33,340 bases of DNA from Deltaproteobacteria bacterium (GTDB taxonomy: Bacteria > Desulfobacterota > Desulfobacteria > Desulfobacterales > B30-G6). The stretch covers positions 1-33,340 of the forward strand of contig JAHEIB010000014.1 of the NCBI GenBank assembly GCA_024639645.1, written 5' to 3'. The translations under genes were made by a program, and so were the position numbers. Within the stretch, counting starts at the first letter, position 1. Each line of letters begins with the position of its first letter. The notes beneath the pieces were generated by a model. That model was not told the DNA's origin and searched no databases. It saw only the letters and a list, made by a program, of their open reading frames with translations. Below, one piece after another: positions 1,288 through 31,834 of the stretch.

Positions 1288-2910
1288 ATGGCAAAAAGAC
1301 GACCGTTTGGGTGGGGGAAGGGCATCGTTCCAGTCATTATTCTGGTAGGTGTATTTTTCGTCATCGCAAGCGTTTACAGCGACACAGATCTTCATGGCAT
1401 GCGGCCGGACATTCTGATGATCGATCTCCCGGCCATACCGGGGGGCGAAAAAATGCCCGCCGTACAGTTCCTTCACGATGTGCACACCCAGCGCGTTCAG
1501 GAAAAAAAGAACTGCAGCACATGTCATCTGGAAAAAGATCAGCGGTTCGTATTCAAATTCATGCGTCTCGATAACGGTGCCATCGAGACGGACATGGCCA
1601 TATACCATGAAAACTGTATTGGCTGTCATGTGGAGACAGAAGCAAGTGGAGAGAAGGCTGGACCCATAACGGGTGACTGCCGATCCTGTCACAGGACCCA
1701 GACCGGTATGGGCAGTTCCTGGAGGCCCCTGTCTTTTGACAAATCTCTTCATTATCGCCACGAATCTGCAACTGTAATTCTACCGGAAGATGCAGGGGAC
1801 ACTGTCAACTGCAGCGCCTGTCACCACACGTACGACAAATCTGCACAGAAAACAGTCTACACCCGGGGTGAGGAGGGCAGTTGTCGGTATTGTCACAAAG
1901 AAGAGAAAACAGAAGATGCCTCCTCCATTCGCTCGGCATCGCATGATGCATGCGTCAACTGCCACCAGACACTGATGAATCAAAAGAAAACAGCCGGACC
2001 CATCGAGTGTGCAGGTTGTCACAGTGCCGAGGAGCAGGCCGGCATTAAAGTAGTGGCTTCGGTTCCCCGTATGAAACGAAACCAGCCCGATGCAGTGCTC
2101 CTGGCCAGCTGGATAACGGGTCAGGAAACGGATGCCAAAAAAGTGGCACAGCAGATGGATCCGGTTGTGTTCAACCATGAGGTTCATGAAGGGGCAAATG
2201 CAAGTTGCCAGTCCTGTCATCATGAAACCCTGAAAAAATGCAGCGACTGTCACACGGAAAACGGAGATCAGGACGGTGGTCAAGTGCAGCTTGCCCAGGC
2301 CATGCATTCCCGAACATCAACTAAGAGCTGTATCGGCTGTCACAAGGAGGCACAGAAGAACAAAAACTGTGCCGGTTGTCATGCAAGCATGCCTGACAAG
2401 CCTTTTGCGGATGAAAACTGCCGCCAGTGCCATCGTCTTGACCGGGCGGCTTTAGGTCCATGGCCCATGAACAAGACAGCCAAGTCAGAACTTGCAATCG
2501 AGGCCGTAAAGGTATCGGCCGGTAATTTCGTAAAACCAACGGATGAACAGATCCCGGAAAAAGTGGTCATCGATGTTTTGGCGGATCAGTATGAAGGGGC
2601 TCAGTTCCCCCATCGACAGGTCTTCAGGGGTATTGAGTCACGGATTGGGGACAATGGGATGGCACGCTATTTTCATGACAAAAAAACAACCCTGTGCATG
2701 GGGTGCCATCATAACAGCCCGGCGAGTCTTCAACCGCCCAAATGTGCTTCTTGTCATGGAGAAGCATTCAAAGGGTCGCTTGACGAACGCCCCGGTCTCA
2801 TGGGGGCCTATCATGGTCAATGCATCAAATGTCACCAGAAAATGGGAATCAAAGACCCTGCGGCAACGGACTGTGGTAAGTGCCATAAGGAGAAACTGAG
2901 CAGTAAGTAG
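1288..2910 (+). CDS. hmcA: High-molecular-weight multihaem cytochrome c HmcA (16 CxxCH motifs)
   Basis: 540 aa with N-terminal signal/anchor; 16 CxxCH motifs counted; first gene of an hmcABCDEF-like series. Confidence 0.92.
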   Translation: MAKRRPFGWGKGIVPVIILVGVFFVIASVYSDTDLHGMRPDILMIDLPAIPGGEKMPAVQFLHDVHTQRVQEKKNCSTCHLEKDQRFVFKFMRLDNGAIETDMAIYHENCIGCHVETEASGEKAGPITGDCRSCHRTQTGMGSSWRPLSFDKSLHYRHESATVILPEDAGDTVNCSACHHTYDKSAQKTVYTRGEEGSCRYCHKEEKTEDASSIRSASHDACVNCHQTLMNQKKTAGPIECAGCHSAEEQAGIKVVASVPRMKRNQPDAVLLASWITGQETDAKKVAQQMDPVVFNHEVHEGANASCQSCHHETLKKCSDCHTENGDQDGGQVQLAQAMHSRTSTKSCIGCHKEAQKNKNCAGCHASMPDKPFADENCRQCHRLDRAALGPWPMNKTAKSELAIEAVKVSAGNFVKPTDEQIPEKVVIDVLADQYEGAQFPHRQVFRGIESRIGDNGMARYFHDKKTTLCMGCHHNSPASLQPPKCASCHGEAFKGSLDERPGLMGAYHGQCIKCHQKMGIKDPAATDCGKCHKEKLSSK

Positions 2911-2967
2911 TAAGCACTAAGCTGTAAGCTGCTTACCGCTTATAGCTTAAAACGTGCAGCTTATCGT
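2901..2967. repeat. Heptad array A (NNTAAGC units, inverted) between hmcA and hmcB
   Basis: CAGTAAG TAGTAAG CACTAAG CTGTAAG CTGCTTAC CGCTTAT AGCTTAA ... AGCTTAT; hmcA stop codon lies inside. Confidence 0.85.
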
Positions 2968-2992
2968 CAATAAACAAGATTGAGGTGGTAAT

Positions 2993-4087
2993 ATGGGGAT
3001 ATCCCGAAGACAGTTCCTTGGCTGGTTAGGTGCAGCAGGCGCCGGTGCGACTGCTGTGAGTCGTGCGGAAGCGGCTTCGAACAAGCAGTTCGACGGTTAT
3101 CCAGGCAGCTTTGGAATTCTGCATGACACAACCCGCTGTATCGGGTGCCGAAAGTGTGAAGAGGCCTGCAACAAGGTCAATGAACTTCCGGCTCCAGAAC
3201 AGCCCTTTGACGACCTGAGTGTTCTGGACAAAACCCGCCGGACACGATCCGATGTCTTTACGGTGGTCAATCAATTCCAGAAAGAGGACAGCCAGTTGCC
3301 TGTATTTGTGAAAAAACAGTGCAATCACTGTCTGGAGCCCGCATGTGCTTCGGCCTGTTTTGTCAGGGCATTGAGAAAAGTCAAGACCGGTGCCGTCATC
3401 TACGATGAATCCCTGTGTGTGGGTTGCCGGTACTGTATGGTGGCATGCCCCTTCAATATTCCGGCATACGAGTATAACGAGGCCATTACGCCCCGCGTGA
3501 CCAAATGCACCATGTGCCACCCGCGTATCGAAAAAGGATTGCTTCCCGGATGTGTGGAATCATGTCCGAAAGAGGCCCTGGCATTCGGTACACGTGAAAG
3601 ACTTCTTAAAACAGCCCGGCGACGTATTCAAAAATATCCCAATGCTTATATCGACCATATTTATGGCGAACAAGAGATGGGTGGTACCAGCTGGTTGACC
3701 ATTTCCGGGACGCACTTTTCCGAGATCGGTATGCGTGAAGATCTCGGCACGCAGACAGCGTCCAGTTTTACCGCGGGTCCTTTGGCGGCGGTTCCCGTGG
3801 TGGTGGCTTTGTGGCCGGTATTGCTTACCGGTATTTACGCCATCTCAAAACGCAAAGACAAAATTGCTGACGAAGAACGCATCCATGCCGTGGCACAGAC
3901 GGTTGCCGACGCCAACGAAGAGATGCAGGTCAAGCTGGCCAAGATGAAAGACAGCATGGCCAAGGAGAAGGAGGCCGCCATTAACCTGGAAGTCAAACGT
4001 GCTCTGGAAGAAGCTGCCAAAGAAGCGGCGGAATCACAGCAGGCGTCTGAAGAAGCGGGTTCCGAGACACCGAAGGAGGAAAAATAG
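2993..4087 (+). CDS. hmcB: HmcB-like periplasmic 4Fe-4S ferredoxin with Tat-like signal, C-terminal TM and coiled coil
   Basis: RRQFLG N-terminus; CIGCRKCEEAC, CNHCLEPACASAC, CVGCRYCMVACP, CTMCHPRIEKGLLPGCVESCP motifs. Confidence 0.9.
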   Translation: MGISRRQFLGWLGAAGAGATAVSRAEAASNKQFDGYPGSFGILHDTTRCIGCRKCEEACNKVNELPAPEQPFDDLSVLDKTRRTRSDVFTVVNQFQKEDSQLPVFVKKQCNHCLEPACASACFVRALRKVKTGAVIYDESLCVGCRYCMVACPFNIPAYEYNEAITPRVTKCTMCHPRIEKGLLPGCVESCPKEALAFGTRERLLKTARRRIQKYPNAYIDHIYGEQEMGGTSWLTISGTHFSEIGMREDLGTQTASSFTAGPLAAVPVVVALWPVLLTGIYAISKRKDKIADEERIHAVAQTVADANEEMQVKLAKMKDSMAKEKEAAINLEVKRALEEAAKEAAESQQASEEAGSETPKEEK

Positions 4088-5254
4088 ATGCCACAAGAGA
4101 CGGCGCAGGTGAATAAGTCAATTTTCACGCCTTTCAATGTGATAGCGGGCATGATCATATTTTGTGGTTTGATCATTACTGTTTTGAGGTTTACGGGCGG
4201 GCTGGGTGCGGTCACAAACCTTGATGACAACAATCCCTGGGGAATCTGGATAGGATTTGATCTGTTGTGCGGTGTGGCCCTTGCTGCTGGTGGTTATGTC
4301 ACCTCGGCGTCATGCTACATATTTGGACTAAAAAGATTCCATTCGGCTGTTCGCCCCGCCATACTGACCGCTTTTCTGGGCTATGCCCTGGTGGTAATGG
4401 CTCTCCATTATGATGTGGGTAGGCCCTGGCGTCTGCCATATCCAATTTTTCTGTCACCGGGCACCACGTCCCTGCTGTTCGAAGTGGGCTTGTGCGTTTT
4501 TCTCTATCTCACCGTCCTTTTTATCGAATTCAGCCCTGCAGCACTCGAATGGCTGGGTCTGAAAAAAATTCGAAATCTGGTGGTCCGTCTGACCTTGGTG
4601 CTGACCATATTCGGCGTGATTCTCTCCACCCTGCATCAGTCTTCCCTTGGGGCGCTATACATGATCGCACCCTCCAAACTCCACCCTTTGTGGTATTCGG
4701 GCTATCTGCCGGTATTCTTTTTTGTTTCCAGTGTTTTTGCCGGTCTGTCCATGGTGATTTTTGAAGGATCCCTGGCGCATCGCCACCTGCACCACAAGAT
4801 GGACGAAACGCACCTGGAAGAAAGCGCGGGAGTGGCCCTGGGGTTCGGCAAAGCCGCTGCCTTTGTGATGATGGGGTATGTGGGTGTCAAGTTCATTGGT
4901 ATTGCCATGGACAACAACTGGCACTATCTGGCCACGGGATGGGGACTCTGGTTCCTGTTGGAGCTGATTGGATTTGTGGTCGTTCCAGCATTTATGTATG
5001 CCATTGCAGCACGTGACCGGAACCTGCGGCTGGTGCGCTGGGCGTCTATCCTGGCGGTTCTGGGGGTCGTGCTGAATCGTTTGAACATCTCTGTGGTGGC
5101 ATTCAACTGGCACCTGCCGTCGGCTGATCGTTACTTTCCCAGCTGGATGGAAATCGCCATATCCTTGTTCATTGTTACCATCGGCGTTGTGGTTTATCGA
5201 TTCGTGACCACCCGGATGCCCATTTTTTACGAGCACCCGGACTATGAGCATTAA
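4088..5254 (+). CDS. hmcC: HmcC-like NrfD family integral membrane subunit
   Basis: 388 aa polytopic protein with NrfD-type segments (GLDDNNPWGIWIGFD-like); follows hmcB directly. Confidence 0.9.
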   Translation: MPQETAQVNKSIFTPFNVIAGMIIFCGLIITVLRFTGGLGAVTNLDDNNPWGIWIGFDLLCGVALAAGGYVTSASCYIFGLKRFHSAVRPAILTAFLGYALVVMALHYDVGRPWRLPYPIFLSPGTTSLLFEVGLCVFLYLTVLFIEFSPAALEWLGLKKIRNLVVRLTLVLTIFGVILSTLHQSSLGALYMIAPSKLHPLWYSGYLPVFFFVSSVFAGLSMVIFEGSLAHRHLHHKMDETHLEESAGVALGFGKAAAFVMMGYVGVKFIGIAMDNNWHYLATGWGLWFLLELIGFVVVPAFMYAIAARDRNLRLVRWASILAVLGVVLNRLNISVVAFNWHLPSADRYFPSWMEIAISLFIVTIGVVVYRFVTTRMPIFYEHPDYEH

Positions 5255-5285
5255 AAGAATGATTTGTTGATTAAAGAGAGGTTTC

Positions 5286-5429
5286 ATGGACGCACTGTTT
5301 TATACACTGCATGATTTTCTGCTGCATTCGAAAAGTATCACCTATATGATGATGGGAGCGGTTCTTATCGGATTGCTCCTCTTCTGGCTCTTTCTCAGCG
5401 GTAGGGATGAAAAAAAGAGAACGTTTTAG
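5286..5429 (+). CDS. hmcD: HmcD-like small membrane protein (47 aa)
   Basis: Manually translated: MDALFYTLHDFLLHSKSITYMMMGAVLIGLLLFWLFLSGRDEKKRTF*; one TM; AGAGAGG SD upstream; position matches hmcD. Not in the supplied ORF list (below cutoff). Confidence 0.75.
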   Translation: MDALFYTLHDFLLHSKSITYMMMGAVLIGLLLFWLFLSGRDEKKRTF

Positions 5430-5430
5430 A

Positions 5431-5500
5431 CCTAAGCCATAAGCTTTAAGCATTAAGCTATAAGCGGCTTACAGCTTAATGCTTAGTGCTTATAGCTTAT
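5431..5500. repeat. Heptad array B (inverted) between hmcD and hmcE
   Basis: CCTAAG CCATAAG CTTTAAG CATTAAG CTATAAG CGGCTTAC AGCTTAA TGCTTAG TGCTTAT AGCTTAT. Confidence 0.88.
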
Positions 5501-5533
5501 TACCACAAACCCTTGCTCTAAATGGAGGCATCA

Positions 5534-6211
5534 ATGTACGATTTTCTAACCGGCCCAATGTTCTGGTTGTCTTTGGGCATTTGTCTGATCGGCATGCTGG
5601 TCAGGTTTGTTCTCTATTTCAGGGGATTGAGCTGGCAACTGGACCGTGTGGCCTACAAGGCCTATCCGTTTCAGGGATTTAAAGGTGCCGTGAATTCCAT
5701 CGTGAAATGGCTCATACCTTTTGGCACCTATGGCTGGCGCAAACAACCCTTTATGACCGTCATCTTTTTCGGTTTTCATATCGGGGCCGTTCTGGTACCC
5801 TTGTTTCTGCTGGCGCACAACTTGTTTTTAAAGGAGAAAATCGGTCTTTCACTCCCTACGCTGAATCCCCTTATCGCAGATGTTCTTACCTGGACGGTTA
5901 TTGTGAGTGCTATTTTTCTGGCACTTAGAAGAATCGCCCTGCCCGAAGTCCGGATACTGACGACATGGTATGATTACGTCATTTTGCTTTTAGCCGTGGC
6001 GCCTTTCATCACCGGTCTTGTCGCCCGGTACGAGCTGGGTTCTTACACATCTTGGTTAACAGTGCATATCCTGTGCGGTGAAGCCCTGCTCATCGCTGCA
6101 CCCTTTACCAAGTTATCGCACATCGTTCTATTTTTTGCTTCACGGGCGCAGTTGGGTATGGACTACGGAATAAAACGCGGCGGTATGAAAGGAAAAGGCA
6201 TGGCCTGGTAG
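5534..6211 (+). CDS. hmcE: HmcE-like membrane subunit (NarI-like)
   Basis: Polytopic; upstream ATG at 5522 overlaps GGAGG, so ATG 5534 is the better start. Confidence 0.85.
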   Translation: MYDFLTGPMFWLSLGICLIGMLVRFVLYFRGLSWQLDRVAYKAYPFQGFKGAVNSIVKWLIPFGTYGWRKQPFMTVIFFGFHIGAVLVPLFLLAHNLFLKEKIGLSLPTLNPLIADVLTWTVIVSAIFLALRRIALPEVRILTTWYDYVILLLAVAPFITGLVARYELGSYTSWLTVHILCGEALLIAAPFTKLSHIVLFFASRAQLGMDYGIKRGGMKGKGMAW

Positions 6212-6253
6212 CTCACTGGGCAATGAACCTAAACACTTAAGGAGAGACGTAAC

Positions 6254-7642
6254 ATGCCTGAAGGAAAATTCTGCAATAAAAAACCGGTGGAAACAGAAGA
6301 AGAACTCAAGGCACTTCTGGGAGATACCGGCGGGAAGCAATATTATGAGGAGATGAAATCCCTTGATGTAGACCAGGCCTTGCTTTGGAAAACAATCCAG
6401 AACACCTTGAAGTCCAGGATGAAGACCTGGCTGGAAATATGCGCCCACTGCGGCATGTGTGCCGACAGTTGTTTTTTGTACCTGATCAATGACCAGGATC
6501 CCAAACAGGTGCCAGCCTACAAGATCCAATCGACACTGGGGGAAATCGTCAAGCGTAAGGGAAAGGTGAACAACGAATTCATGCGTATGGTCATGGAAAC
6601 GGCATGGGCCAAATGCACCTGCTGTAACCGTTGCGGTATGTATTGTCCCCACGGCATCGACATGGGGGTCATGTTCGGCTATCTCAGGGGTCTCTGCTAT
6701 CAGCAGGGATTTGTTCCCTGGGAAATGAAAATCGGCGCTGGCATGCATCGGGTCTATCGTGCCCAGATGGATGTTACGGACGAGGATTTTGTAGAGACCT
6801 TCGAATGGATGGTGGAGGAATATGAGGAAGACTATCCGGGTCTCGAGGTGCCGGTGGACAAGGAAGGTGCAGATATCCTTTACACGGTCAATGCCCGGGA
6901 AGTAAAACACTATCCCGAAGATCTGGCCGAAGCGGCAATTCTTTTTCATCTGGCCGGTGAGAACTGGACCGTACCAACCAGCGGGTGGGAGCAGACCAGT
7001 CTGGCCATGTTTGCCGGTGACTGGGCAGCATGCAAAATGCAGGTAGAGCATGTCTATGCGGCCATGGAACGGCTCAAACCCAAGCGTATGGTGGGAACAG
7101 AGTGCGGTCATGCCCATCGTGCCACCGTTGTGGAGGGACCCTACTGGGCCGGCAGAAGTACGGGGAAACCCCCCGTGGAATCGATCCATTATGTTGAATG
7201 GCTGGCCGAAGCCCTGCGGGAAGGAAAACTCAAGATTGATCCGTCCAAACGTCTCAAAAAGCCGGTAACGCTTCAGGATTCCTGCAACTATGTCCGCAAT
7301 AACGGTTTAAAGGATATCACACGGGAAATTATGAGCTATATTGTCGAACCCGGCTATTTTAAGGAGATGTCACCGAACCGGGAACACAATTACTGCTGCG
7401 GTGGCGGTGGGGGATTTAACGGCATCGGTCTCTTCCGGCCCCAGCGAAACAAAGCCCTGATTACCAAACGGGACCAGATCTTGAACGTGGGTGCCGAAAT
7501 GGTGATCGCTCCCTGTCACAACTGCTGGGATGCGATCCGGGATTTAGAAGAGGAATATAAAATCGGCATAAAATGGTCTTTCCTCAAGCCCCTGGTGATC
7601 AGCATGGTCGAAATTCCAGAGCACTTAAAACTACAAGAATAG
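6254..7642 (+). CDS. hmcF: HmcF-like cytoplasmic iron-sulfur protein with CCG domain
   Basis: [11 protein letters not shown] and [12 protein letters not shown] clusters plus NYCCGGGGG; last hmc gene. Confidence 0.9.
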
Positions 7643-7683
7643 GGTGTTGGATTTTCTCTTTCAACCCGCCAACGAGGTGACCT

Positions 7684-8583: not shown

Positions 8584-8616
8584 ATTGCCTGCTTAGTAGC
8601 AAAAAAGTCGCGGTTC

Positions 8617-8639: not shown

Positions 8640-8670
8640 TTTGGAATGTATCATAGGAAGAGAGGGACGG

Positions 8671-14512: not shown

Positions 14513-15247
14513 ATGGGCAAGCCCTTACAAACACAGCACAATAAGCGCCACAGTGTCGACCCGAAAAAATGTCTTTCGTGTGGTACCACTGAAAACATGG
14601 GTAACCGAAAATACTGCTCTGTGGCGTGTAGAAAAAAACTGCGCCATCAGCTGAACATCCGGACCGGTCTTTTGAAAGCCCTCAATGCACGCTATGCAAC
14701 GTTTTATTTTACAGATGAGCTGCTGATCATGGATGTTCTCCCAATCGGTTCTATAAAGATATACAGTTTTCTTTTTCCGCGGTCCCGGAACAGGGAACCG
14801 GTGGCGGATTTTTCAGAGCTGTGCAATATCCTGGGGAATGCCTGGTGGGGAGAGATGAAAAGGACCAATCGGGAATATCTTGCCTCGCAACATGTGCTGA
14901 ACCAGGCGGCCCCCAAGGATTTTTCAATGGAATCGATTCAGCCGGAGATAGTGAAAATACCTGTTGTCAAGGGAAGTGGAAAGTTACTGTTGTATTTAAA
15001 GCTCGACAGGGAGGCTCTCCATTCAAAAAAACTCAAGCAGGTTATCAAGTCGGCCTACCGGCGTCAGGCCAGAATCGTTCACCCAGACATGGGTGGAGAT
15101 GAGAACGCCTTCCGTAAAATCTATCAGGCTTATGAGACCCTGATGGCGTGGGCCGAGGAACCGAGTTTTCTGAAACGCAGTGGTTTCCCGGACAAATGGT
15201 TTTATGACGGAAATAAAAACAGGTGGGTACAGCCGACACCTAACTGA
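14513..15247 (+). CDS. J-domain protein with N-terminal Cys-rich motif
   Basis: CLSCGTTENMGNRKYCSVACRKKLR N-terminal; C-terminal SAYRRQARIVHPDMGGDENAFRKIYQAYETLMAW (HPD J-domain). Confidence 0.8.
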   Translation: MGKPLQTQHNKRHSVDPKKCLSCGTTENMGNRKYCSVACRKKLRHQLNIRTGLLKALNARYATFYFTDELLIMDVLPIGSIKIYSFLFPRSRNREPVADFSELCNILGNAWWGEMKRTNREYLASQHVLNQAAPKDFSMESIQPEIVKIPVVKGSGKLLLYLKLDREALHSKKLKQVIKSAYRRQARIVHPDMGGDENAFRKIYQAYETLMAWAEEPSFLKRSGFPDKWFYDGNKNRWVQPTPN

Positions 15248-15309
15248 GCTATAAGCGATAAGCTGTAAGCTATAAGCGGATTACCGCTTATAGCTTACAG
15301 CTTATCGCT
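15248..15309. repeat. Heptad array C: perfect 26-bp inverted repeat with 4-nt loop filling a convergent gap
   Basis: AGCGATAAGCTGTAAGCTATAAGCGG (15254-15279) / ATTA / CCGCTTATAGCTTACAGCTTATCGCT (15284-15309). Confidence 0.95.
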
Positions 15310-16465
15310 AAATATACCTATCCGCCAGTCCTGAAATAAAAGCATCTACGCCCTCCTTGCCATCTTTTACGCGAATATCGGCCACCAGATTTTTGATTTT
15401 ATGATAGGTGGCCGAATCATTTTGCAGATCATCGGTTGAGTGGTAGGCACCACCCCGGCGACCGGCTCTGTATATCAATCGATCCTGATCGGAAAGCATT
15501 TGATATTTGGCGATAACGTCGAGCATGGTATTTTTATCTTTCGGCAGGCTGCCTGAAACTTCTTCCAGTAGATTCATGATGTGGTCACTGGTGATGGTGC
15601 TGTGGATGCCATCAAGGGTTTCAATAAAGAGGCGGGTTTCTTCAGCAAGCATATCATCTGTCTGCGGCGTAAATGTCCCATCGATCAAATTCTGATACAG
15701 CGGAATTCGTTGCGGTACCCTGAGGCTACGCAACCTGATAAAGTGGGGATCGATCCGGTTGAGTACATTGGCTGTTTCAAGGGCGTGTTCCCGCCACATT
15801 TCCTGGCCTCCCAGACCGGGCATAATATATTCGGAAAGCTCCATGCCGGCTGCAATGACGCTTCGGCCGGCATCGATCTGCTGGGCAGCGGTCACCCCTT
15901 TTTTCATCAGCTTCAGGAGCGGATCATATCCGGTCTCAAGGCCTATATGAATTCGATCCAGGCCTGCTTTGTGGATCTTTTTGAGTGACTTTACTGATTT
16001 ACGGATAATGGTCCTGGACCGCGAATAGGTGGTTACCCGCTTGATGCCGGGGAATGTTTTTCTCAGAAATTCAAGTATTTTTACAAGATCATCGGTTACC
16101 ATCACCAGGTTGTCTGCGTCTTGAAGAAAACAGGCCCGGGTATCGTAATAGAGCCAGGCGGCAACACTGCGATAGTTGTCATGATAGCGGGCTTCATTGA
16201 AGATGGTGGTGATCACGGCATCGTTGACTTGCCCTGAGAAGCCCGATCGTTTTGAGAGGGATCGGATATCGTCGGCTATCTGCCTGGCTGCCAGGATATC
16301 CTGTTTTATTTCGTCAACGGATCTCAAGGAAAACTTCCGGTTCTTGTATACGGGGCAGAACAGGCATTGGTTCCACGGGCAGTTGCGGGTGATGCGTAAA
16401 AGCAAACTGCGGGCTTCGTTGGGTGGCCGGATAGGCCCCTGTTCAAAACCGGGATGATCTTTCAT
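15308..16465 (-). CDS. Radical SAM protein
   Basis: LLLRITRNCPWNQCLFCPVYKNRKFSLRSVDEIKQDI (CxxxCxxC), GLDRIHIGLETGYDPLLKLMKKGVT. Confidence 0.9.
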   Translation of the reverse strand: MKDHPGFEQGPIRPPNEARSLLLRITRNCPWNQCLFCPVYKNRKFSLRSVDEIKQDILAARQIADDIRSLSKRSGFSGQVNDAVITTIFNEARYHDNYRSVAAWLYYDTRACFLQDADNLVMVTDDLVKILEFLRKTFPGIKRVTTYSRSRTIIRKSVKSLKKIHKAGLDRIHIGLETGYDPLLKLMKKGVTAAQQIDAGRSVIAAGMELSEYIMPGLGGQEMWREHALETANVLNRIDPHFIRLRSLRVPQRIPLYQNLIDGTFTPQTDDMLAEETRLFIETLDGIHSTITSDHIMNLLEEVSGSLPKDKNTMLDVIAKYQMLSDQDRLIYRAGRRGGAYHSTDDLQNDSATYHKIKNLVADIRVKDGKEGVDAFISGLADRYI

Positions 16466-16478: not shown

Positions 16479-16518
16479 AGTTATAAGCTGTAAGCATTAA
16501 GCTGCTTATGGCTTGTTG
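16479..16518. repeat. Heptad array D
   Basis: TTATAAGC TGTAAGC ATTAAGC TG CTTATGGCTTG. Confidence 0.75.
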
Positions 16519-16529: not shown

Positions 16530-16648
16530 TCTTTAACCCTTATACGCTGGGAAGCTAGGATGCTTGGAAGCGGTGATGCTGTTGTCCGCATACTCCTTTC
16601 AGCTCCCCTCAAACCCTTGTATCACCCCCGGACCCTGGAACCCATGCG
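16530..16648. repeat. Octad composite module 1
   Basis: CGCTGGGA AGCTAGGA TGCTTGGA AGCGGTGA TGCTGTTG ... TGTCCGC ... CCCCTCAAACCCTTGTATCACCCCCGGACCCTGGAACCC. Confidence 0.8.
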
Positions 16649-17860
16649 TCAGCATATAAATATCTCCGGCGGCGTCTGCGATATCAGACGGGCGCCTGTG
16701 TCCGTCACCAGAAAAACAGATTCCATACCCGCTGAAAAAGCATCTTCAAAAACGAATTTTGGTTCCAGGGCAAAGGTCATACCGGGCAGCAGGAGATCCT
16801 CTTTTCCCTGGGCGATAATGGGGGGTTCGATGAGTTCATAGCCAATACCGTGCCCGATGAATGAAACCTGGTGTCCAGGAATACCCAGATAGCTTTCTTT
16901 GTACCCCAGTGACCCGGCCATATGGAGCGTATGCGAGAACAGGTCGTGGGCACACATCCCTGGCTTGATTGCCTCCAACAGTTCCTGGTGAATCGCCATG
17001 GCGGCCCGGGCCGCCTGCAGGGCTTTTTGCGGCATGTGTCCGATGGCAAACATCCGGGTTTCGTCCATGTGAAAACCATTCAAAACCGATGCAAAATCAA
17101 CCATGATCGGTTCCTCGGCCCTGATTGTTTTATTCCCGGCACCACATGGAAAGGCATATGAGCTCCCCTGGCCGCTGGCAGGGGAGTCGAGCACCCCGGT
17201 CATTCCACCGCTCCTGCCGCTCAGTACATGCCAGGAATACCCTTCGGTGCGATAGTTGCGAACCCGCAAATTTCCGGCATGTCCCCGGTCTCTGGCAAAG
17301 TTTTCGAACAGACCGGCAAACCCCATTTCCGAGAGACCAGGCTTTAGTATGCGACGCATGTAGTCAAATGTCAGGCATGACATTTCAGCCGTATGTTCCA
17401 TCTGCTGAATATCCCAGGGAGACTTGGTTTTGCGCACATCCAGTATGGATGCCGAGGCATCCACAAGTTTTTGGGAGGGAAATATTTTTTTAAAAAAATG
17501 AAACTCCGCCACCGGCATGACATCATACTCGAGACCCAGGGTCCGGGGGAGGGTACCAAAGTGATCCCTCAGACAACCGGGGATATCCCGGAAAGAGTCG
17601 ATGGGGACGATCTGACTCAGGGGTGATTCTTTGCGTGCCCTGGGGAAATAGCGTTTGATGAACAGAACAGGTTCACCGTGGGAGGGGACATACAGGGCGC
17701 CATCTTGTGCAGTACCTGAAAAGTATAAAAGATCCACCCTTTGTACAATTAGGGCACCATCGACCCCCCATTTCTGAAACGTTTTCTGGAGGCGTGACCA
17801 CCGACGGCTTATTTCTGTGCTGGGTATGGGTGTGATACGGGGCAAAGGAGGGATGGTCAT
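16649..17860 (-). CDS. M24 family metallopeptidase (Xaa-Pro dipeptidase-like)
   Basis: VDFASVLNGFHMDETRMFAIG, GHQVSFIGHGIGYELIEPPII, FALEPKFVFEDAFSAGMESVFLVTDTGA. Confidence 0.9.
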   Translation of the reverse strand: MTIPPLPRITPIPSTEISRRWSRLQKTFQKWGVDGALIVQRVDLLYFSGTAQDGALYVPSHGEPVLFIKRYFPRARKESPLSQIVPIDSFRDIPGCLRDHFGTLPRTLGLEYDVMPVAEFHFFKKIFPSQKLVDASASILDVRKTKSPWDIQQMEHTAEMSCLTFDYMRRILKPGLSEMGFAGLFENFARDRGHAGNLRVRNYRTEGYSWHVLSGRSGGMTGVLDSPASGQGSSYAFPCGAGNKTIRAEEPIMVDFASVLNGFHMDETRMFAIGHMPQKALQAARAAMAIHQELLEAIKPGMCAHDLFSHTLHMAGSLGYKESYLGIPGHQVSFIGHGIGYELIEPPIIAQGKEDLLLPGMTFALEPKFVFEDAFSAGMESVFLVTDTGARLISQTPPEIFIC

Positions 17861-22582: not shown

Positions 22583-23131
22583 TCATTCCGATCCTTTTGT
22601 GACAGGTGATTCGGATCGGGCTTTCAGCATATCTGAATAAATATCAAAGTCACGCTGGGAGAAGAGTACAAATGTTACCCGTTTTAAGGAGTCGCTCTTC
22701 TCGATATGGTGGGTAATCGTATCAATGGCGATCGTTGCGGCTTCTTCTATGGGATATCCGTATACACCGCAGCTGATAGCCGGAAATGCAATGGTCTCAA
22801 ACTGTTTGTCTATAGCGATTTGAATACTATTTTCATAGCAACGCCGAAGCAGGCGCGCATCTGACGGCTTGCCGCTGTAGATGGGTCCTACGGTATGGAT
22901 GACATACCTGGCAGGGAGGTTGTACCCCCGTGTCAATCGGGCTTCTCCGGTGGGGCATCGGTTTAGGGTTCGGCACTCCGCCAGGAGATCCGGACCGGCC
23001 GCCCGATGTATGGCCCCGTCAACGCCGCCACCGCCCAGCAGAGAGGCATTGGCCGCATTGACAATGGCATCCACAGCCAGGGTGGTAATATCTCCCTGGA
23101 GGAGGGTTATATTTTTTGGGCTGTAAGTCAT
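22583..23131 (-). CDS. Macrodomain (ADP-ribose binding/hydrolase) protein
   Basis: LLQGDITTLAVDAIVNAANASLLGGGGVDGAIHRAAG ... HTVGPIY ... AFPAISCGVYGYP. Confidence 0.93.
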   Translation of the reverse strand: MTYSPKNITLLQGDITTLAVDAIVNAANASLLGGGGVDGAIHRAAGPDLLAECRTLNRCPTGEARLTRGYNLPARYVIHTVGPIYSGKPSDARLLRRCYENSIQIAIDKQFETIAFPAISCGVYGYPIEEAATIAIDTITHHIEKSDSLKRVTFVLFSQRDFDIYSDMLKARSESPVTKGSE

Positions 23132-23205
23132 AAGCCGTAAGCGGTAAGCTGTAGACAGTAAGCAGCTTAAAGCTTACTGCTTAGCGCTGATAGTTTAATG
23201 CTATA
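23121..23205. repeat. Heptad array F between fmdB-like and macrodomain genes
   Basis: CTGTAAG TCATAAG CCGTAAG CGGTAAG CTGTAGA CAGTAAG CAGCTTAA AGCTTAC TGCTTAG CGCTGAT AGTTTAA TGCTATAA; macrodomain ATG (23129-23131) lies inside. Confidence 0.85.
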
Positions 23206-23692
23206 AATCGTAAAGCGTTTCATCTTTAAAAGGTTTTTTTTGACCGGTTTTTGTACGGCCACCCTTTTTCCCGGGCAGGATAAAGGGGTCTTCATTTTCC
23301 AGAAGATCACCCATTTCCGCTTCGAGCTGTTCGGGATCCTCACCTTTTTCCATACGTTGGAGGGCTTCGTCCATACCGGGTCCTAGTTTCAAGCCGGTCA
23401 TGTCGGACAACTTGCGCATCAGGTTTGCTGCCTGCTTGGGATCTTCTTCATTCAATCCTTCGGCTTCCTTGGCCAGCATGCCCATGGCTTTTTCCATCTT
23501 GCCCTCATCGATGGGGAGGTCATCCATGTCTCCGGTTTCCCTGGCCTTGCCGGTGAACGCGAATTGCGATACCTGCCTGGACAGTTTGTTCTTGCACCTG
23601 GGGCACTTGGGTGTCTTGGTTGTATTAACCTTGCGGGAAAAGAAATTAAAAATCGTGTTGCAGTCATGGCAAAAAAATTCGTATATCGGCAT
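23201..23692 (-). CDS. FmdB family zinc ribbon protein
   Basis: MPIYEFFCHDCNTIFNFFSRKVNTTKTPKCPRCKNKLSRQVSQF. Confidence 0.88.
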   Translation of the reverse strand: MPIYEFFCHDCNTIFNFFSRKVNTTKTPKCPRCKNKLSRQVSQFAFTGKARETGDMDDLPIDEGKMEKAMGMLAKEAEGLNEEDPKQAANLMRKLSDMTGLKLGPGMDEALQRMEKGEDPEQLEAEMGDLLENEDPFILPGKKGGRTKTGQKKPFKDETLYDL

Positions 23693-24580: not shown

Positions 24581-24678
24581 ACCTGATTTGGTGATTGAAG
24601 ACGTTAGGGGAATGCGCTCGCTGTTCCGGTTCATTTTTTTTCCATTAAAAGAGGCATCCCAAGAAACACTCAGATCTG

Positions 24679-25467: not shown

Positions 25468-25700
25468 CAGGCAATGGCAGATAGCAGTACCCAGCTTCCA
25501 GGCATATTAGCTTTCCAGTTTACAAGTTCAGTAATTAGCCAATAGCTAATTACTTTTCGTCCATTATTCCCCTTGAACCCTTGGCCCCTTGTATGCTGGG
25601 AAGCAAGGATGCTTGTATGCTGGGATGCTGCTTTCCGCTTGTAGCTCTCAGCCACCCTCGAACCCTTGTATCCCCCTCGGGGCCTCGGACCCTTTTTTTT
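25425..25700. repeat. Octad repeat locus 2: inverted octad arrays enclosing a composite module, ending in T8
   Basis: GGGTCCGA GGGTTCGA GGGGGCAA GGGTCCGA GG...; TTGAACCC TTGGCCCC TTGTATGC TGGGAAGC AAGGATGC TTGTATGC TGGGATGC ... CCTCGGACCCTTTTTTTT. Confidence 0.85.
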
Positions 25701-25772
25701 AAATATGGTGAGAAACGCCGGTAAAATAATACGCATGTAGATTCAAACTAATGAATATGAAAGGAACTACTT

Positions 25773-26660
25773 ATGCGCCTCATACGTTTTGGTGAGAAAG
25801 GCAACGAGCGTCCTGGTCTTTTAAAAGAGGGCCGTATTGTTGATTTGCGGAAGCATTTTCCTAATATTCCCGATATTGGTGAGCCCTTTTTTCGTGATGA
25901 CTGGCTGGCAAAGGCCCACCAGGTGACGGATCAGGGTGTAAAAATGGATGTACGTCTGGGATGCCCCGTGCACTGGCCGTCCAAGATTATCTGTATTGGG
26001 AAGAACTATGCCGAACACGCAAGGGAAGGGGGCTTTAAGAGCCCTGAAAAACCGATCCTTTTTTCAAAAGCCATGAACACGCTCAACGGGCCCTTTGACC
26101 CCATTCTGCTGCCTGAAAGCGCCAGTCAAGTGGACTGGGAAGTGGAACTGGCAGTCGTGATGGGTCGGCAAGGCAAAAGGATTCGGGCGGCAGACGCCTA
26201 TGCGCATGTGGCCGGGTTCTGTGTCATGAACGATGTGTCGGGCCGGGATGCGCAGTATGGAGATGGGCAATTTTTCCGGGGCAAGTCCTTTGACACGTTT
26301 GCACCGTTGGGGCCATGCCTGGTGACCCATGATGAGCTGGTCGATGTAGAAAACCTTCAGATTACAGCCCACCTGGATGGCAAATGCATGCAGAAAGGCA
26401 ACACCGGTGACCTGATTTTCAAAATCCCTTTTATTATCGAATATATTTCCAGGGATATTACGCTATTGCCCGGTGATATCATTTCCACCGGCACGCCATC
26501 AGGTGTAGGTATTTACAGGGATCCCCCGATCCTGCTTCAACCAGGCAGCGTCATAAAATGCGAAGTCGAGAAAATCGGATATATCGAAAATAGGGTTGTG
26601 GGAAAAGAAGGGTCCGAGGATTCGAGGTTTCCAGGGTTCAAGGGGGGCCCCAGGCGATAA
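25773..26660 (+). CDS. Fumarylacetoacetate hydrolase family protein
   Basis: IICIGKNYAEHAREGG...DWEVELAVVMGRQGKRI...CVMNDVSGRDAQ...GDIISTGTPSGVG. Confidence 0.93.
   Translation: MRLIRFGEKGNERPGLLKEGRIVDLRKHFPNIPDIGEPFFRDDWLAKAHQVTDQGVKMDVRLGCPVHWPSKIICIGKNYAEHAREGGFKSPEKPILFSKAMNTLNGPFDPILLPESASQVDWEVELAVVMGRQGKRIRAADAYAHVAGFCVMNDVSGRDAQYGDGQFFRGKSFDTFAPLGPCLVTHDELVDVENLQITAHLDGKCMQKGNTGDLIFKIPFIIEYISRDITLLPGDIISTGTPSGVGIYRDPPILLQPGSVIKCEVEKIGYIENRVVGKEGSEDSRFPGFKGGPRR
26610..26652. repeat. Octad repeat locus 3, left arm (inside FAH 3' end)
   Basis: GGGTCCGA GGATTCGA GGTTTCCA GGGTTCAA GGGGGGCC. Confidence 0.8.
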
Positions 26661-26705
26661 GCTTTAAGCGGCTTACAGTTTAAGACCTATGGCTTACCGC
26701 TTTTA
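26653..26705. repeat. Heptad array G
   Basis: CGATAAG CTTTAAG CGGCTTAC AGTTTAA GACCTAT GGCTTAC CGCTTTT; FAH TAA stop is within CGATAAG. Confidence 0.8.
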
Positions 26706-26853
26706 CCCTCCAACCCTTGTATCGCCCTCGGCCCCTCAAGCCCTTCAATATGCTGGAACGCTGGGACGCTTGGAGGCTGGGATGCTGCCTGTCCGTTCAT
26801 AGCTGTCAGCCACCCTTTAACCCTTGTATCACCCTCGAACCCTCTGACCCTCA
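26705..26853. repeat. Octad repeat locus 3, right part / composite module 3
   Basis: CGCTGGGA CGCTTGGA GGCTGGGA TGCTGCC TGTCCGT TCATAGC TGTCAGC CACCCTTTAACCCTTGTATCACCCTCGAACCCTCTGACCC. Confidence 0.85.
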
Positions 26854-27375
26854 GTACTTGCTATCCGCATACTCCACCCAGCCACCTGCCTCAACCAGCT
26901 CGCGATCGAATCCGGACAGATCAAAGGAGACACATTCTTCACGGTCGGCAGTTCGGAAAATAAAAACCTGCTCATGGAGGTTGGTTTCAAGGGTGGTTTC
27001 CGCACCTGAAAAACTGGAAAAGAGCCTGTCAATGGTTTCTGGGGGAAGCTCCATGGCCATCATGCCGTTGTTGTACATGTTCTGGCGGAAAATCCGGGCA
27101 AAGCTTGCGGCAATGACCAGGTTGATGTCGTTTACCTCCAGCGCCCAGGGCGCATGCTCCCGGGAAGAACCACAGCCAAAATTAGACCGGGAGAGGATAA
27201 CGTTTTTGTCTGCATGGTCTGTTTGGGGGTCAAATTCTTCAAGACTCAAATCCTCCAGCAGATGAGGCTTGAGAGCCTCTTTGGAGATCTCCGTTAGATA
27301 TTTTGCCGGGATGATTTCATCCGTGTTGATATCTGATCGATCCAGAAAAAGAACTTTCCCATTAAACGATTTCAT
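26851..27375 (-). CDS. leuD: 3-isopropylmalate dehydratase small subunit
   Basis: DRSDINTDEIIPAKYL...ILSRSNFGCGSSREHAPWAL. Confidence 0.9.
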   Translation of the reverse strand: MKSFNGKVLFLDRSDINTDEIIPAKYLTEISKEALKPHLLEDLSLEEFDPQTDHADKNVILSRSNFGCGSSREHAPWALEVNDINLVIAASFARIFRQNMYNNGMMAMELPPETIDRLFSSFSGAETTLETNLHEQVFIFRTADREECVSFDLSGFDRELVEAGGWVEYADSKY

Positions 27376-28667
27376 TATTTGTCTTTCCTGTAGAGTGATG
27401 AATTGGCGATGTGACCGGCAACTGCCGTTGCAGCAGCGGTGGCGGGGCTCATCAGGTGGATCCGGCCCCCTTTGCCCATTCTGCCGTTAAAATTGCGATT
27501 CGTGGTAGATGCACAGACCTCCCCTTCCGCCAGCACGCCGTTGCTCATGCCCAGACAGGCTCCGCAAGTAGGGTTGGTGACGCAAAAACCGGCATCCATA
27601 AATATCTTGATGAGGCCCTGATCCAGCGCTTTTTGATAGGTTTCCGGAGTTGCGGGGGAGAGGATGGCACGAACCCGGGGACTGATTTTGTTCTTTCCCA
27701 GGGCACTTGCCGCAGCCTGAAGATCTTCGATGCGTCCATTGGTACAGGAGCCGATATAGACCTGGTCCACCACCGTGCCCTGCATTTCTTCAACCGGCTT
27801 GACACGGTCGGGCTGATTTCCATGGGTCACCATGGGGCTCAGTTCGCTGACATCTATGGTGATGACAGCCTCGTAATCAGCATCCGGATCCGATGCCAGG
27901 GGCTGAAACGCTGCAAGAGCGGCTTCCTTGGAGCTGTATTCTGCCTGAATATAAGGCCAGAGATAGTCGACGGTGTGCATGTCCGGATAACAGATGCCGC
28001 AGGTGCCTCCCGCTTCAACCGCCATATTACACAGGGTCATTCTGGCGGCCATATCCATCTCGTCCACAACCGGTCCGGCAAACTCGATAACCTTATCCGT
28101 GGCGCCATTGACACCGATCTGACCGATAATGTGAAGAATCACATCTTTGGCAAAGACCCCCGCTTTCAGTCTGCCGGATATGTCTATTTTGATGGTTTTA
28201 GGATAACGAAAGGCGCAGATTCCCTTGAGGATAGCGACTTCCGTATCCGTCGTGCCGACACCGGGTGAAAATACGCCGAACGCGCCATAGGTGCAGGTGT
28301 GAGAATCTCCCATGGTGATGGTGAAACCGGGCCGAACAAAACCTTTTTCTGGAAACAAGGCATGGCAGACACCATTCCGGCCGATATCGAAAAAATCGGG
28401 TATCTGGTGGCGGCGTGTCCAGTCCCTGAGGATTTTTCCCTGCTGGGCTGTTTTTGAATCCTTGGCCGGGGAAACATGATCGATAACCACTTTGATTTTG
28501 TCTGGATCAAAGACCTTGTCTTTGCCTCTCTGGAGCAGGTCGTTGATGGCCATGGGGGTGGTAATCTCATGGCAGAAGACGGCATCGAGACGGATGATGT
28601 GCATATCGCCATGCGGGTTGTCGATTAAATGTGAATCAAAAATTTTTTCGGCAATGGTTTTGCCCAT
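27375..28667 (-). CDS. leuC: 3-isopropylmalate dehydratase / homoaconitase-type large subunit
   Basis: MGKTIAEKIFDSHL...FTITMGDSHTCTYGAFG...YIGSCTNGRIEDL...NPTCGACLGMSNG...TTNRNFNGRMG. Confidence 0.9.
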   Translation of the reverse strand: MGKTIAEKIFDSHLIDNPHGDMHIIRLDAVFCHEITTPMAINDLLQRGKDKVFDPDKIKVVIDHVSPAKDSKTAQQGKILRDWTRRHQIPDFFDIGRNGVCHALFPEKGFVRPGFTITMGDSHTCTYGAFGVFSPGVGTTDTEVAILKGICAFRYPKTIKIDISGRLKAGVFAKDVILHIIGQIGVNGATDKVIEFAGPVVDEMDMAARMTLCNMAVEAGGTCGICYPDMHTVDYLWPYIQAEYSSKEAALAAFQPLASDPDADYEAVITIDVSELSPMVTHGNQPDRVKPVEEMQGTVVDQVYIGSCTNGRIEDLQAAASALGKNKISPRVRAILSPATPETYQKALDQGLIKIFMDAGFCVTNPTCGACLGMSNGVLAEGEVCASTTNRNFNGRMGKGGRIHLMSPATAAATAVAGHIANSSLYRKDK

Positions 28668-28747
28668 ATGTTCTCCTTTTTACCATTGACTGCCAGTGAT
28701 ATTTTATCAAATTGATTTTGTTAAACGGCCGCTTGTTTGAAAATATT

Positions 28748-28829
28748 TATCACGAAAACACGAAAGAACGAAAACACGAAAAACATCATTAAAAATTTCG
28801 TGTTTTCCAAATTTCGTGCTTTCGTGATA
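28748..28829. repeat. CACGAAAA octad inverted repeat
   Basis: TATCACGAAAACACGAAAGAACGAAAACACGAAAAA ... TTTCGTGTTTTCCAAATTTCGTGCTTTCGTGATA. Confidence 0.85.
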
Positions 28830-28886
28830 GTTTCTTTAATGTCTCAAAATATACGCTTATTAAAAAAAGGGCGCATGACTCAGATG

Positions 28887-30683
28887 TTAATTGTCATCCG
28901 TCTTTAACACCGACAAAAACGCAGACTGCGGAATCATGACTTTTCCGACCATTTTCATGCGCTTTTTGCCTTTTTTCTGTTTTTCCAGAAGTTTTCGTTT
29001 CCGGGTAATATCCCCACCATAACACTTGGCCGTCACGTCTTTACGAAAGGGGGAGACGGTCTTGCGGGCTACAATTTTTCCGCCGATGGCGCCCTGAATG
29101 GCTATCTTAAACATCTGTCGCGGAATTTCATCCCGAAGCCGGGTACAGGCATGCCGGCCACGCTCTTCGGCCCGGTCTCTGTGAACCAGCTGCGACAGGG
29201 CATCTACCCGTTCGCCGTTGATGAGGATGTCCAGTTTGACCATGCGGGTCTCGCGATAATCGATGATATCGTAATCAAAGGATCCATACCCTTGGGTTAC
29301 GGTTTTCAGCTTGTCATAAAAATCATAGATCACTTCCGACAGGGGGAGCTCGAATACCATTTCCAGGCGGTTGTTTGTCAGGTACTGGTAGTTTTTGTTG
29401 ATACCCCGGCGGTCAAGACAGAGCTTCATGACGGCGCCCATATATCTGTCTGGCACCATGATGGAAGCCCGGATAAACGGTTCTTTGGTTTTTTCGATGG
29501 TGGTGGGGTCAGGGTAGAGGGCCGGGTTGTCGATGATAAGCTCACTGCCATCGTTCAGGACAATGATGTAGCGAACCGACGGCGCTGTCAAAATCAGGGA
29601 TAGGTCATATTCCCTTTCCAGCCGCTCCTGGACAACCTCCAGATGGAGCAGCCCCAGAAACCCGCACCGGAATCCGAAGCCAAGCGCCACGGATGAATCT
29701 TTTTCGTAGATCAGAGCGGCATCGTTGAGTTTCAATTTTTCAAGTGCTGTGGTTAGGTCTCCATATCCGTCCGACGCCACCGGATAGATGGATGAAAAGA
29801 CGACCGGTTTGGCTTCTTTGAATCCGGGAAGGGCCGCATCGCAGGGGTGGTCTCTTAGCGTAATGGTGTCCCCGCAACGGGTGTCGCTGACTGTTTTGAT
29901 GCCGGCAATCAGGTATCCTACCTGACCGGCAGACAGTGTCTTTTGGGGAACACGAACAATCTGGAATAGCCCAACCTCCTCGACCTTGTAGACGGCATTG
30001 TTGGACATGAACTTGATGCGGTCCCCCGGTCTGATGGTTCCCTGAAATAGTCGAAAATGAACAATGGTTCCCCTGAAGGGATCATAGTGAGAGTCAAAGA
30101 TAAGGCCCTTTAAGGGGGCCTCGGCGTCTCCGGTGGGATGCGGTAGTTTCTGGACGATGCTCTCGAGCAGGACATCGATGCCAAGGCCTTCTTTTGCCGA
30201 CGCCTGTATTGCGGTGTCGGGGTCAAGACCGAGATCTTCTTCTATTTGCGTCATCACCCTGTCGACATCAGCCGACGGCAGGTCTATTTTGTTGATGACG
30301 GGGATGATATTCAAATTGTGTTCCATGGCAAGATACAGATTTGCAAGGGTTTGGGCTTCGACACCCTGGCTTGCGTCGATGAGCAGCAAAGCGCCCTCGC
30401 AGGATGCAAGTGCTCTGGATACTTCATATGTAAAATCTACGTGACCGGGCGTGTCGATGAGATTGAGATGATAGGTCATACCGTCTTTGGCGGTATAAGG
30501 CAGACAGATGGTCTGGCTTTTTATGGTAATTCCCCGCTCTCTTTCGATATCCATGGTGTCCAGAATTTGATCTTTGAAGTCCCGGTCCGAAACCATATCC
30601 GTAAATTGAATGAATCGGTCGGAAAGCGTGGATTTGCCATGGTCGATATGTGCGATAATACTGAAATTTCTAATATTTTTCAT
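28887..30683 (-). CDS. lepA: Elongation factor 4 (LepA)
   Basis: MKNIRNFSIIAHIDHGKSTLSDRFIQ...QDLIDTPGHVDF region; C-terminal CYGGDITRKRKLLEKQKKGKKRMK. Confidence 0.97.
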   Translation of the reverse strand: MKNIRNFSIIAHIDHGKSTLSDRFIQFTDMVSDRDFKDQILDTMDIERERGITIKSQTICLPYTAKDGMTYHLNLIDTPGHVDFTYEVSRALASCEGALLLIDASQGVEAQTLANLYLAMEHNLNIIPVINKIDLPSADVDRVMTQIEEDLGLDPDTAIQASAKEGLGIDVLLESIVQKLPHPTGDAEAPLKGLIFDSHYDPFRGTIVHFRLFQGTIRPGDRIKFMSNNAVYKVEEVGLFQIVRVPQKTLSAGQVGYLIAGIKTVSDTRCGDTITLRDHPCDAALPGFKEAKPVVFSSIYPVASDGYGDLTTALEKLKLNDAALIYEKDSSVALGFGFRCGFLGLLHLEVVQERLEREYDLSLILTAPSVRYIIVLNDGSELIIDNPALYPDPTTIEKTKEPFIRASIMVPDRYMGAVMKLCLDRRGINKNYQYLTNNRLEMVFELPLSEVIYDFYDKLKTVTQGYGSFDYDIIDYRETRMVKLDILINGERVDALSQLVHRDRAEERGRHACTRLRDEIPRQMFKIAIQGAIGGKIVARKTVSPFRKDVTAKCYGGDITRKRKLLEKQKKGKKRMKMVGKVMIPQSAFLSVLKTDDN

Positions 30684-30856
30684 GTCACAATAAACTTGCT
30701 ATGCGATTATTGTCGGTTGACAGCCAATTTGTATCCGGATATTATATCGGGCTAATAAGATGGTTATCCGGAAACAGACTATTTACCAATTTTATTGTAC
30801 CCATGTCAACCAGGCGTTCCATTGCCTGGTTCGATAGCAAAAAGGAAAGGGTTTTA

Positions 30857-31777
30857 GTGGAAGCGGAAATACTGATCGTTGATGATGAAGAAGGCATCCG
30901 CCTTTCAATGCAGGAATTCGTGACCGTGTCCGGCTTCAGGACGTTGACGGCGGAAAGTGCGGAAGAGGCCTTGGCGTTGCTTGCGGAACGTCGAGTCGAT
31001 GTTGTTATTACGGATATCATGCTTCCGGGAATGGATGGTCTTGAACTCACGGATGTAATCAAGAAAGATTACGATATCGATGTTATCGTACTAACAGGAT
31101 ACTCGGGTGACTATTCGTATGAAGAAGCCATCAGCAAAGGCGCAAGTGATCTGGTGTTCAAGCCGGTCCGATTCGAAGAACTGATTCTCAGATTGAAAAG
31201 AGTGCTCAAAGAACGCAAGCTGACAAACGAACGCTTACAGATGCTCGAAAAACTGAAGAAGCTGTCCATTACAGACGGCCTCACCAGCCTGTATAATTCT
31301 AGGCATTTCTACAATCAGCTCAAGGGGGAAGTCGACAGATCCACACGTTACAGTCACCCGCTTACCATGCTGCTTCTGGATATCGATCATTTCAAGGACT
31401 ACAATGACCGTTACGGGCATCTGGAAGGAGACAAAGTCCTGTTACGACTCGGGCAGGTGATAAAGCTCCTGTTGCGGAAAATGGACTCGGCTTACCGCTA
31501 CGGGGGGGAGGAGTTTACCATCATCCTTCCCGAGACCGATAGCGAAGAGGCCCTTACGGTTGCCCAAAGGATTCGAAAAGCCATCAAGGAAATTGTCTTT
31601 AACCCGGAACCGGGAAAGAATGTATCCATTACCATCAGTATCGGTATGACCGCCTACAACCCACCTGAAGACCTGGCGACCTTTATCCAAAGGGCAGACA
31701 GGGCCTTGTATGGTTCAAAGGAAGGCGGCCGGGACAAGGTATCGGCACTTTTGGCACAGGCCACTCAGGACTCCTAA
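30857..31777 (+). CDS. Response regulator with GGDEF (diguanylate cyclase) domain
   Basis: ILIVDDEEGIRLSMQEF...VVITDIMLPGMDG...VFKPV; YRYGGEEFTIILPE. GTG 30857 after AGGAAAGG preferred over ATG 30701/30803. Confidence 0.88.
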   Translation: MEAEILIVDDEEGIRLSMQEFVTVSGFRTLTAESAEEALALLAERRVDVVITDIMLPGMDGLELTDVIKKDYDIDVIVLTGYSGDYSYEEAISKGASDLVFKPVRFEELILRLKRVLKERKLTNERLQMLEKLKKLSITDGLTSLYNSRHFYNQLKGEVDRSTRYSHPLTMLLLDIDHFKDYNDRYGHLEGDKVLLRLGQVIKLLLRKMDSAYRYGGEEFTIILPETDSEEALTVAQRIRKAIKEIVFNPEPGKNVSITISIGMTAYNPPEDLATFIQRADRALYGSKEGGRDKVSALLAQATQDS

Positions 31778-31834
31778 GCCATAAGCTATAAGTCATAAGC
31801 TTTATGCAGCTTAGTGCTTACCGCTTATGGCTCA
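31773..31834. repeat. Heptad array H filling the convergent gap between GGDEF and rhomboid genes
   Basis: CCTAAGC CATAAGC TATAAGT CATAAGC TTTATGC AGCTTAG TGCTTAC CGCTTAT GGCTCA; both stop codons lie within it. Confidence 0.88.

Follow-up and report, generated by a model that had tools for sequence, protein, structure and literature searches.

The window analysed here, a stretch of 33,340 bases (48.7% G+C, contig C54) from a Deltaproteobacteria bacterium, carries at seven loci short arrays of contiguous heptads, NNTAAGC, in which a fixed core of five bases alternates with a linker of two free bases and a run of units on one strand faces a run of GCTTANN units on the other. These arrays belong to a large family in the source genome, which is restricted to this lineage among the sampled genomes, lies between genes with a bias towards gene 3′ ends, has linkers that vary independently of each other, and is present as insertions in two gaps compared with sister genomes. 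Taking these features together, we tentatively favour the reading that the arrays form a lineage-specific family of intergenic sites resembling repetitive extragenic palindromic (REP) sequences, in which contiguous 7-bp boxes would serve a cooperative DNA-binding protein in a manner similar to omega/parS. On the comparative sequence analysis this is possible, with chances somewhat short of even.

The family has been characterised in an assembly of 3.44 Mb in 302 contigs, estimated to be 84% complete. A genome-wide search with three consecutive units, (NNTAAGC)x3, has returned 316 matches (146 + 170), while the reversed-pattern control has returned none. A sample of 1,145,123 bases, about one third of the genome, has been analysed in detail with a small heptad hidden Markov model (HMM), the detection threshold of which drops the most decayed arrays. 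In this sample 106 arrays have been detected, 99 of them two-armed, as compared with 0 in sequences generated from a dinucleotide model and 0, 3, 5, 2, 3, and 7 for six permuted cores in the same scan. The original prediction, in which a dispersed family was to be judged by such a genome-wide scan against controls, has thus held, and the arrays occur far above chance. Spread rather evenly over the contigs (chi2 per degree of freedom 1.20), they reach a density of ∼0.93 per 10 kb, a value that is somewhat inflated relative to the true mean because the initial contigs of the sample were picked for holding arrays.

The anatomy of the arrays is uniform at the centre and loose at the periphery. Arms mostly comprise 2–7 units, the unit number is variable, the array ends are ragged, and the outer units show poorer core quality. 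The spacing between the arms is exactly one base in 83 of the 99 two-armed arrays; the strand switch from TAAGC to GCTTA that had been noticed in the window is therefore present, and can be refined to a fixed centre TAAGC-N-GCTTA. A constant 5-mer that recurs at 7-bp intervals, together with an inverted centre of 1 bp, gives the arrangement the look of a row of protein boxes. Over 839 units the core positions are conserved to 92, 86, 94, 93, and 95%, the second core base (the first A) being the loosest, and a core conserved to 86–95% next to nearly free linkers supports the assignment as protein sites. The linkers have soft preferences, with T at the first position in 39% and a purine in 71% but C in 8% at the base preceding TAAGC, which is likewise similar to what is seen at a protein site.

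Repeat families are usually attributed to copying by transposition, slippage, or recombination, and when the copying is recent the free bases are still the same in the copies. Such identity has not been observed here. Adjacent units of the sample arrays carry the same linker at a frequency of 0.094 (0.091 expected), and when perfect TAAGC tandem arrays are compared under one rule, neighbouring linkers are identical in 9.4% of cases in the source genome as opposed to 75.4% in other genomes. The mean linker identity between elements is 0.297 (0.293 when shuffled), and no pair of elements is more alike than shuffled ones, save for two alleles of one array (C22/C81, see below). Strings of three linkers common to different arrays number 75, where 68 ± 9 are expected, and no above-chance sharing between arrays has been found for strings of two, three, or four linkers. 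The earlier impressions that every locus has its own order of variants, and that the loci are not simple copies of one element, are statistically borne out by these values. The processes then suspected of generating this diversity fare differently, as template slippage is not supported by the linkers of adjacent units (0.094 against 0.754 for the TAAGC arrays of other genomes), nor the shuffling of heptamer blocks by the number of shared three-unit strings.

Between the two arms, facing linkers are complementary in 13.7% of cases compared with 9.9% in re-paired arms (p = 0.013), and this complementarity does not exceed that under within-arm permutation (p = 0.15). The expectation that each array can fold into a hairpin consequently holds with respect to the inverted arms, but the hairpin is imperfect, since the facing NN match in only 13.7% against ∼10%. 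True near-perfect palindromes are the array at 15,243–15,313 of the window and that at L137:929, and most arrays are not of this kind; a fold-back origin, with one arm serving as the template of its partner, is not supported in view of the near-independence of the facing linkers and the scarcity of true palindromes. In all two-armed arrays of the sample, the left unit k matches the right unit k+1 in 17.2% and k−1 in 8.2% of cases, an asymmetry that has no sensible explanation given that contig strand is arbitrary, and that we take as unexplained or due to chance.

The independence of the linkers from adjacent units and from other arrays, and their near-independence from the facing arm, therefore speak against slippage, mostly against fold-back, and against recent copies, so that slippage, block exchange, and fold-back copying fail to account for the present family. 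A functionless degenerate minisatellite produced by slippage is accordingly very improbable, even though other degenerate arrays with periods of 7, 8, and 9 bp exist in the source genome and, in small numbers, in the sister genus; neighbours without shared linkers (0.094 vs. 0.754) and the fixed 1-bp inverted centre stand against it. As the free bases are shared neither by neighbours nor by different arrays, two kinds of explanation follow: the arrays either are old protein sites held at their cores or have been produced by a non-copying process.

Old age could also apply to a mobile element, whose copies would have retained the core but reached saturation in the linkers. REP- or MITE-like copies of this kind (MITE, miniature inverted-repeat transposable element) would be in line with the REP-like intergenic, 3′-biased distribution (PMC3733652), with the insertion differences to sister genomes, and with the use of the arrays as landing sites of a 244-bp MITE-like repeat; we nevertheless regard this explanation as improbable, because apart from the C22/C81 alleles no element pair rises above the shuffled level, the unit number varies with ragged ends, and a dedicated transposase has not been found. 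Three Y1 transposase matches (PF01797) are present in the source genome, and at the two of these loci that were inspected (L244 and L278) no array lies nearby. The REP-like system that had been considered earlier, taken here as one with a RAYT transposase, is not supported, as Y1 transposases occur in four of four family genomes, three of which are without arrays. Similarly, the proposed link to a reverse transcriptase has not been substantiated: the 84%-complete source genome has no PF00078 match, and two of three relatives have one. A viral origin has been dismissed, with no match to the arrays in viral contigs.

The 244-bp repeat itself has inverted ends, CAACTTTCGGG...CCCGAAAGTTG, and 43 matches in the source genome (L159:1108-1351, L138:5637-5879, L232:1612-1840, L140:2799-3034, and ∼40 more places). 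It adjoins an array in five of nine copies read, whereas 3.2% of random intergenic points lie within 20 bp of one. The copy on L159 is located inside an array, and joining the flanks at the TTACAG duplication restores a perfect 7-bp register, which indicates that this array predates the insertion. REPs have been described as landing sites for insertion sequences (PMC1525189), and the arrays are, like REPs, landing sites for another mobile element.

The position of the arrays relative to genes has been determined with a home-made codon-usage gene finder, by which starts and some calls are possibly wrong and stops are exact for the chosen frames. Of the 92 arrays that have been placed, all are intergenic. 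Convergent gaps hold 20 arrays where 10.2 are expected, divergent gaps 9 where 20.1 are expected, and in tandem gaps 45 of 63 arrays are closer to the upstream stop and 18 to the start. In 42 of 106 arrays the stop codon of a gene falls within the array. The positional likeness to REP sequences is borne out by this intergenic, convergent-gap, and 3′-end bias.

Such a distribution would also suit an RNA hairpin at the 3′ end of transcripts, selected as a structure that stabilises the mRNA, attenuates, or terminates. The mean folding energy of −22.6 kcal/mol, ∼5.3 standard deviations below mononucleotide shuffles, points in the same direction, as do the excess near stops and in convergent gaps and the stops contained in the arrays. 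The folding signal, however, stems from the cores; permuted or redrawn linkers leave it unchanged on average (z of −0.11 and −0.17, each ± 0.12), so that the linkers contribute nothing. Double core changes number six among 1090 cells where about five are expected, and because compensatory changes are thus not in excess, selection on DNA sequence is favoured over RNA pairing. Moreover, a hairpin requires neither a fixed core nor a fixed 7-bp step. Intrinsic terminators have been ruled against by the lack of a U-tract, at least five T within the first eight bases after the array having been found in 3 of 103 cases, below the background of 7.7%. At gathering score, Rfam 15 has given no match in the window or in L138, L195, and L232. 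We consider selection as an RNA structure rather unlikely.

In the other genomes sampled the arrays are nearly absent. The exact two-armed pattern occurs at 47 places in the source genome and at none in 388 other genomes of the order, among them three other family members, and a looser three-unit pattern has been met in one other genome, at one locus, of a wider phylum sample. Two orthologous gaps have been compared with relatives. Between the cytochrome and Fe-S protein genes, G002 has the same flanks with a short gap, in which the source genome has ∼60 bp extra, namely array 1; past a small open reading frame (ORF) upstream of 5522, the gap measures 14 bp in G001 and contains array 2 in the source genome.

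Turnover within the genome can be followed at a single, already degenerate array, for which the only available pair of alleles has been found. The contigs C22 and C81 carry one version each (L131:11523-12313 and L143:9366-10163, ∼94–95% identical, flanks ∼5% apart), the region being either duplicated or present in two strain variants. Exactly one heptad distinguishes the two versions, along with several substitutions in core or centre, and there is hardly any alteration in the linkers; the core has changed at about the rate of the flanks, and the additional TTTAAGC unit does not copy its neighbours. A second pair of contig ends, L188:1-853 and L191:1-853 (95.7% identity), suggests that more than one strain is present in the assembly. 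Over all elements, core mismatches have a mean of 2.18 and a variance of 2.33 and are better described by a Poisson (log-likelihood −137.0) than by a geometric distribution (−152.5), and the mismatches of the two arms are uncorrelated (rho −0.04). Poisson-like counts with uncorrelated arms fit independently maintained sites rather than arrays of mixed age in free decay, although this is suggestive only, since the most decayed arrays fall below the detection threshold.

The main rival to the reading as a protein platform is the writing of arrays from fixed 5-mers and random 2-mers. A putative polymerase or end-joining activity would extend a TAAGCNGCTTA seed outward in 7-base steps, each time adding the fixed 5-mer together with an unspecified 2-mer, followed by drift. 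Linkers that look random at birth, without likeness to neighbours or other elements and without shared strings, would be expected from such writing, and it would agree with the ∼60-bp insertions beside stop codons relative to sister genomes and with C22/C81, where linkers have been stable while cores changed and the added heptad is no copy of those beside it. On the other hand, no reverse transcriptase has been found in the source genome, the mismatch counts lack the spread of ages that arrays born continuously and decaying neutrally should show, the base composition of the linkers is uneven, and the allele evidence comes from one locus. We know of no mechanism that writes DNA de novo in 7-base steps, which has been counted against this explanation as well. 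De novo writing is unlikely, yet the first alternative to be kept in mind; the fuller proposition, that an activity of this lineage writes 7-base steps, with five bases specified and two unspecified, to either side of a single central base and often beside stops, is more doubtful still.

For the favoured protein platform, the site would consist of two facing runs of ∼2–7 contiguous NNTAAGC boxes with one bp between them. A putative protein might bind as one dimer per box, reading the 5-bp core and leaving the 2-bp linker mostly unread, and may load cooperatively on both arms, as omega does on its heptads. At gene 3′ ends it could act in boundary formation, anchoring, or topology, or the sites could merely be tolerated there. 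In the size and number of the boxes and in the mixing of orientations, omega heptads provide a precedent (PMC9499535). Several points weigh against this picture. No cognate protein has been identified, and omega has not been found in a search that had no positive control. In C22/C81 the core has diverged at a rate similar to that of the flanks, and the linkers hardly at all, which, albeit in a degenerate array, points away from strong core selection at that locus. The 1-bp gap sets facing boxes off the 7-bp register, unlike in omega heptads, and the reach of ∼60-bp arrays into so many gaps is not explained by protein binding.

In the window, NNTAAGC runs opposing GCTTANN runs are present at all seven loci reported originally, with coordinates given here as determined by the HMM; a two-unit regular expression picks up a TAAGC run at every one of the seven but a GCTTA run at only five, and the reverse arms of the loci at 16,479 and 26,653 are short or degenerate. 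Array 1 (2895–2965) is located between a multihaem cytochrome gene (1288–2910, + strand), whose TAG stop it contains, and an Fe-S protein gene (from 2993, + strand). Both genes belong to a cytochrome, Fe-S, NrfD, and CCG-protein gene cluster at 1288–7642, which is suggestive of a sulfate reducer's Tmc-type complex. Array 2 (5431–5501), with five + units, one base, and five − units, starts directly past the stop of the short ORF upstream of 5522. Array 3 (15,243–15,313) lies between the convergent genes 14,513–15,247 (+) and 15,308–16,465 (−) and includes both stops; as a near-perfect palindrome it contains a 57-bp inverted match to itself (94.7%) and has an RNA minimum free energy of −47.1. 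The short array 4 (16,482–16,517) separates two genes on the − strand (15,308–16,465 and 16,649–17,860), as does array 5 (23,122–23,199; genes 22,583–23,131, encoding a macro domain, and 23,201–23,692). The degenerate array 6 (26,656–26,705) provides the TAA stop of an FAA-hydrolase gene (25,773–26,660), and array 7 (31,773–31,836) provides both stops of the convergent genes 30,701–31,777 (+) and 31,832–32,800 (−).

Further repeats have been seen alongside the heptad arrays. A second modular intergenic repeat with units of ∼8 bp (for example ATGCTGGA, ACGCTGGG, ACGCTTGG, and AGGCTGGG) occurs in the window at 16,531–16,643, 25,588–25,700, 26,749–26,853, and 33,139–33,222, and relatives of it are present elsewhere in the assembly. 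Downstream of the FAA-hydrolase gene in the sister genome G002 (L197) lies a palindromic octad array that resembles it, and octad arrays occur at this position in both genomes. Two more dispersed repeats of the source genome, of ∼155 bp and ∼105 bp, are represented at 32,958–33,112 of the window and at L128:602-707, and on many contigs. Arrays of period 7 and 9, of TTTGGTG-like, GACGTTC-like, and AACCCAATG-like types and some of them on either strand, have been noted at L235:1194-1282, L156:2456, L168:2077-2320, L143:5864, and L132:8965. A Desulfobacteraceae genome contains at L025:1600-1850 a TAATGNN heptad array of similar 5+2 logic with another core, seemingly split by an element whose inverted ends read TAACA...TGTTA.

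Among known systems, the heptanucleotide short tandemly repeated repetitive (STRR) sequences of cyanobacteria are dispersed direct repeats of nearly identical units and are not known to have an inverted partner arm. Dispersed tandem units of 7 bp are common to both, the inverted partner arm sets the arrays described here apart, and the sharing of variable bases by neighbours, by which STRR or slippage would be recognised, is not seen (0.094 vs. 0.754). REP sequences and bacterial interspersed mosaic elements (BIME), with GTAG or CGTC tags, are high-copy intergenic palindromes in tandem or convergent gaps near gene 3′ ends (PMC3733652). The arrays resemble them in intergenic location, high copy number, 3′-end bias, and as targets of other mobile elements, and differ in that REP copies of 20–40 bp with a tag tetranucleotide can be aligned, whereas the arrays cannot in their linkers. 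Omega, the ribbon-helix-helix ParB of pSM19035, coats contiguous heptads, WATCACW, which may be directly repeated or inverted, and full activity takes a minimum of four contiguous ones (PMC9499535). Both systems have uninterrupted rows of 7-bp boxes, fixed in the core and degenerate at the ends, in direct as well as inverted orientation. However, omega/parS comprises few plasmid promoter sites and an unspaced 7-bp register through the inversion, whereas here more than 100 chromosomal gaps are occupied and the facing cores are one base apart, with core starts 6 bp apart (83 of 99). The omega profile (PF07764) has matched none of four genomes, in a search in which no control genome was matched either. 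Since a defining feature fails in each case, membership in the omega system or the REP families is not claimed. In the literature on degenerate heptamer arrays of related bacteria, the sole close precedent found is that of Geobacter metallireducens, whose arrays are the closest described: paired octa- or heptanucleotide arrays of 3–5 units on opposite strands, in classes 1–3, which have been predicted to be sites of global regulators (PMC2700814). Both families consist of multicopy 7–8-bp units in two opposite-strand blocks, as in the 99 two-armed arrays found here. The consensus units differ (GTTGCTYN, TCTCCGTS, and MTYCTGA as opposed to TAAGCNN), the distance within a pair is variable, as stated for classes 1 and 2, instead of one base, and an analysis of core and linker independence such as given here has not been found in the text of that paper (PMC2700814). 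If the arrays are old sites, a DNA-binding protein so far undescribed would act genome-wide and hold the cores alone; this outcome and that of a non-copying process would both bear on a kind of array that has so far merely been catalogued in Geobacter.

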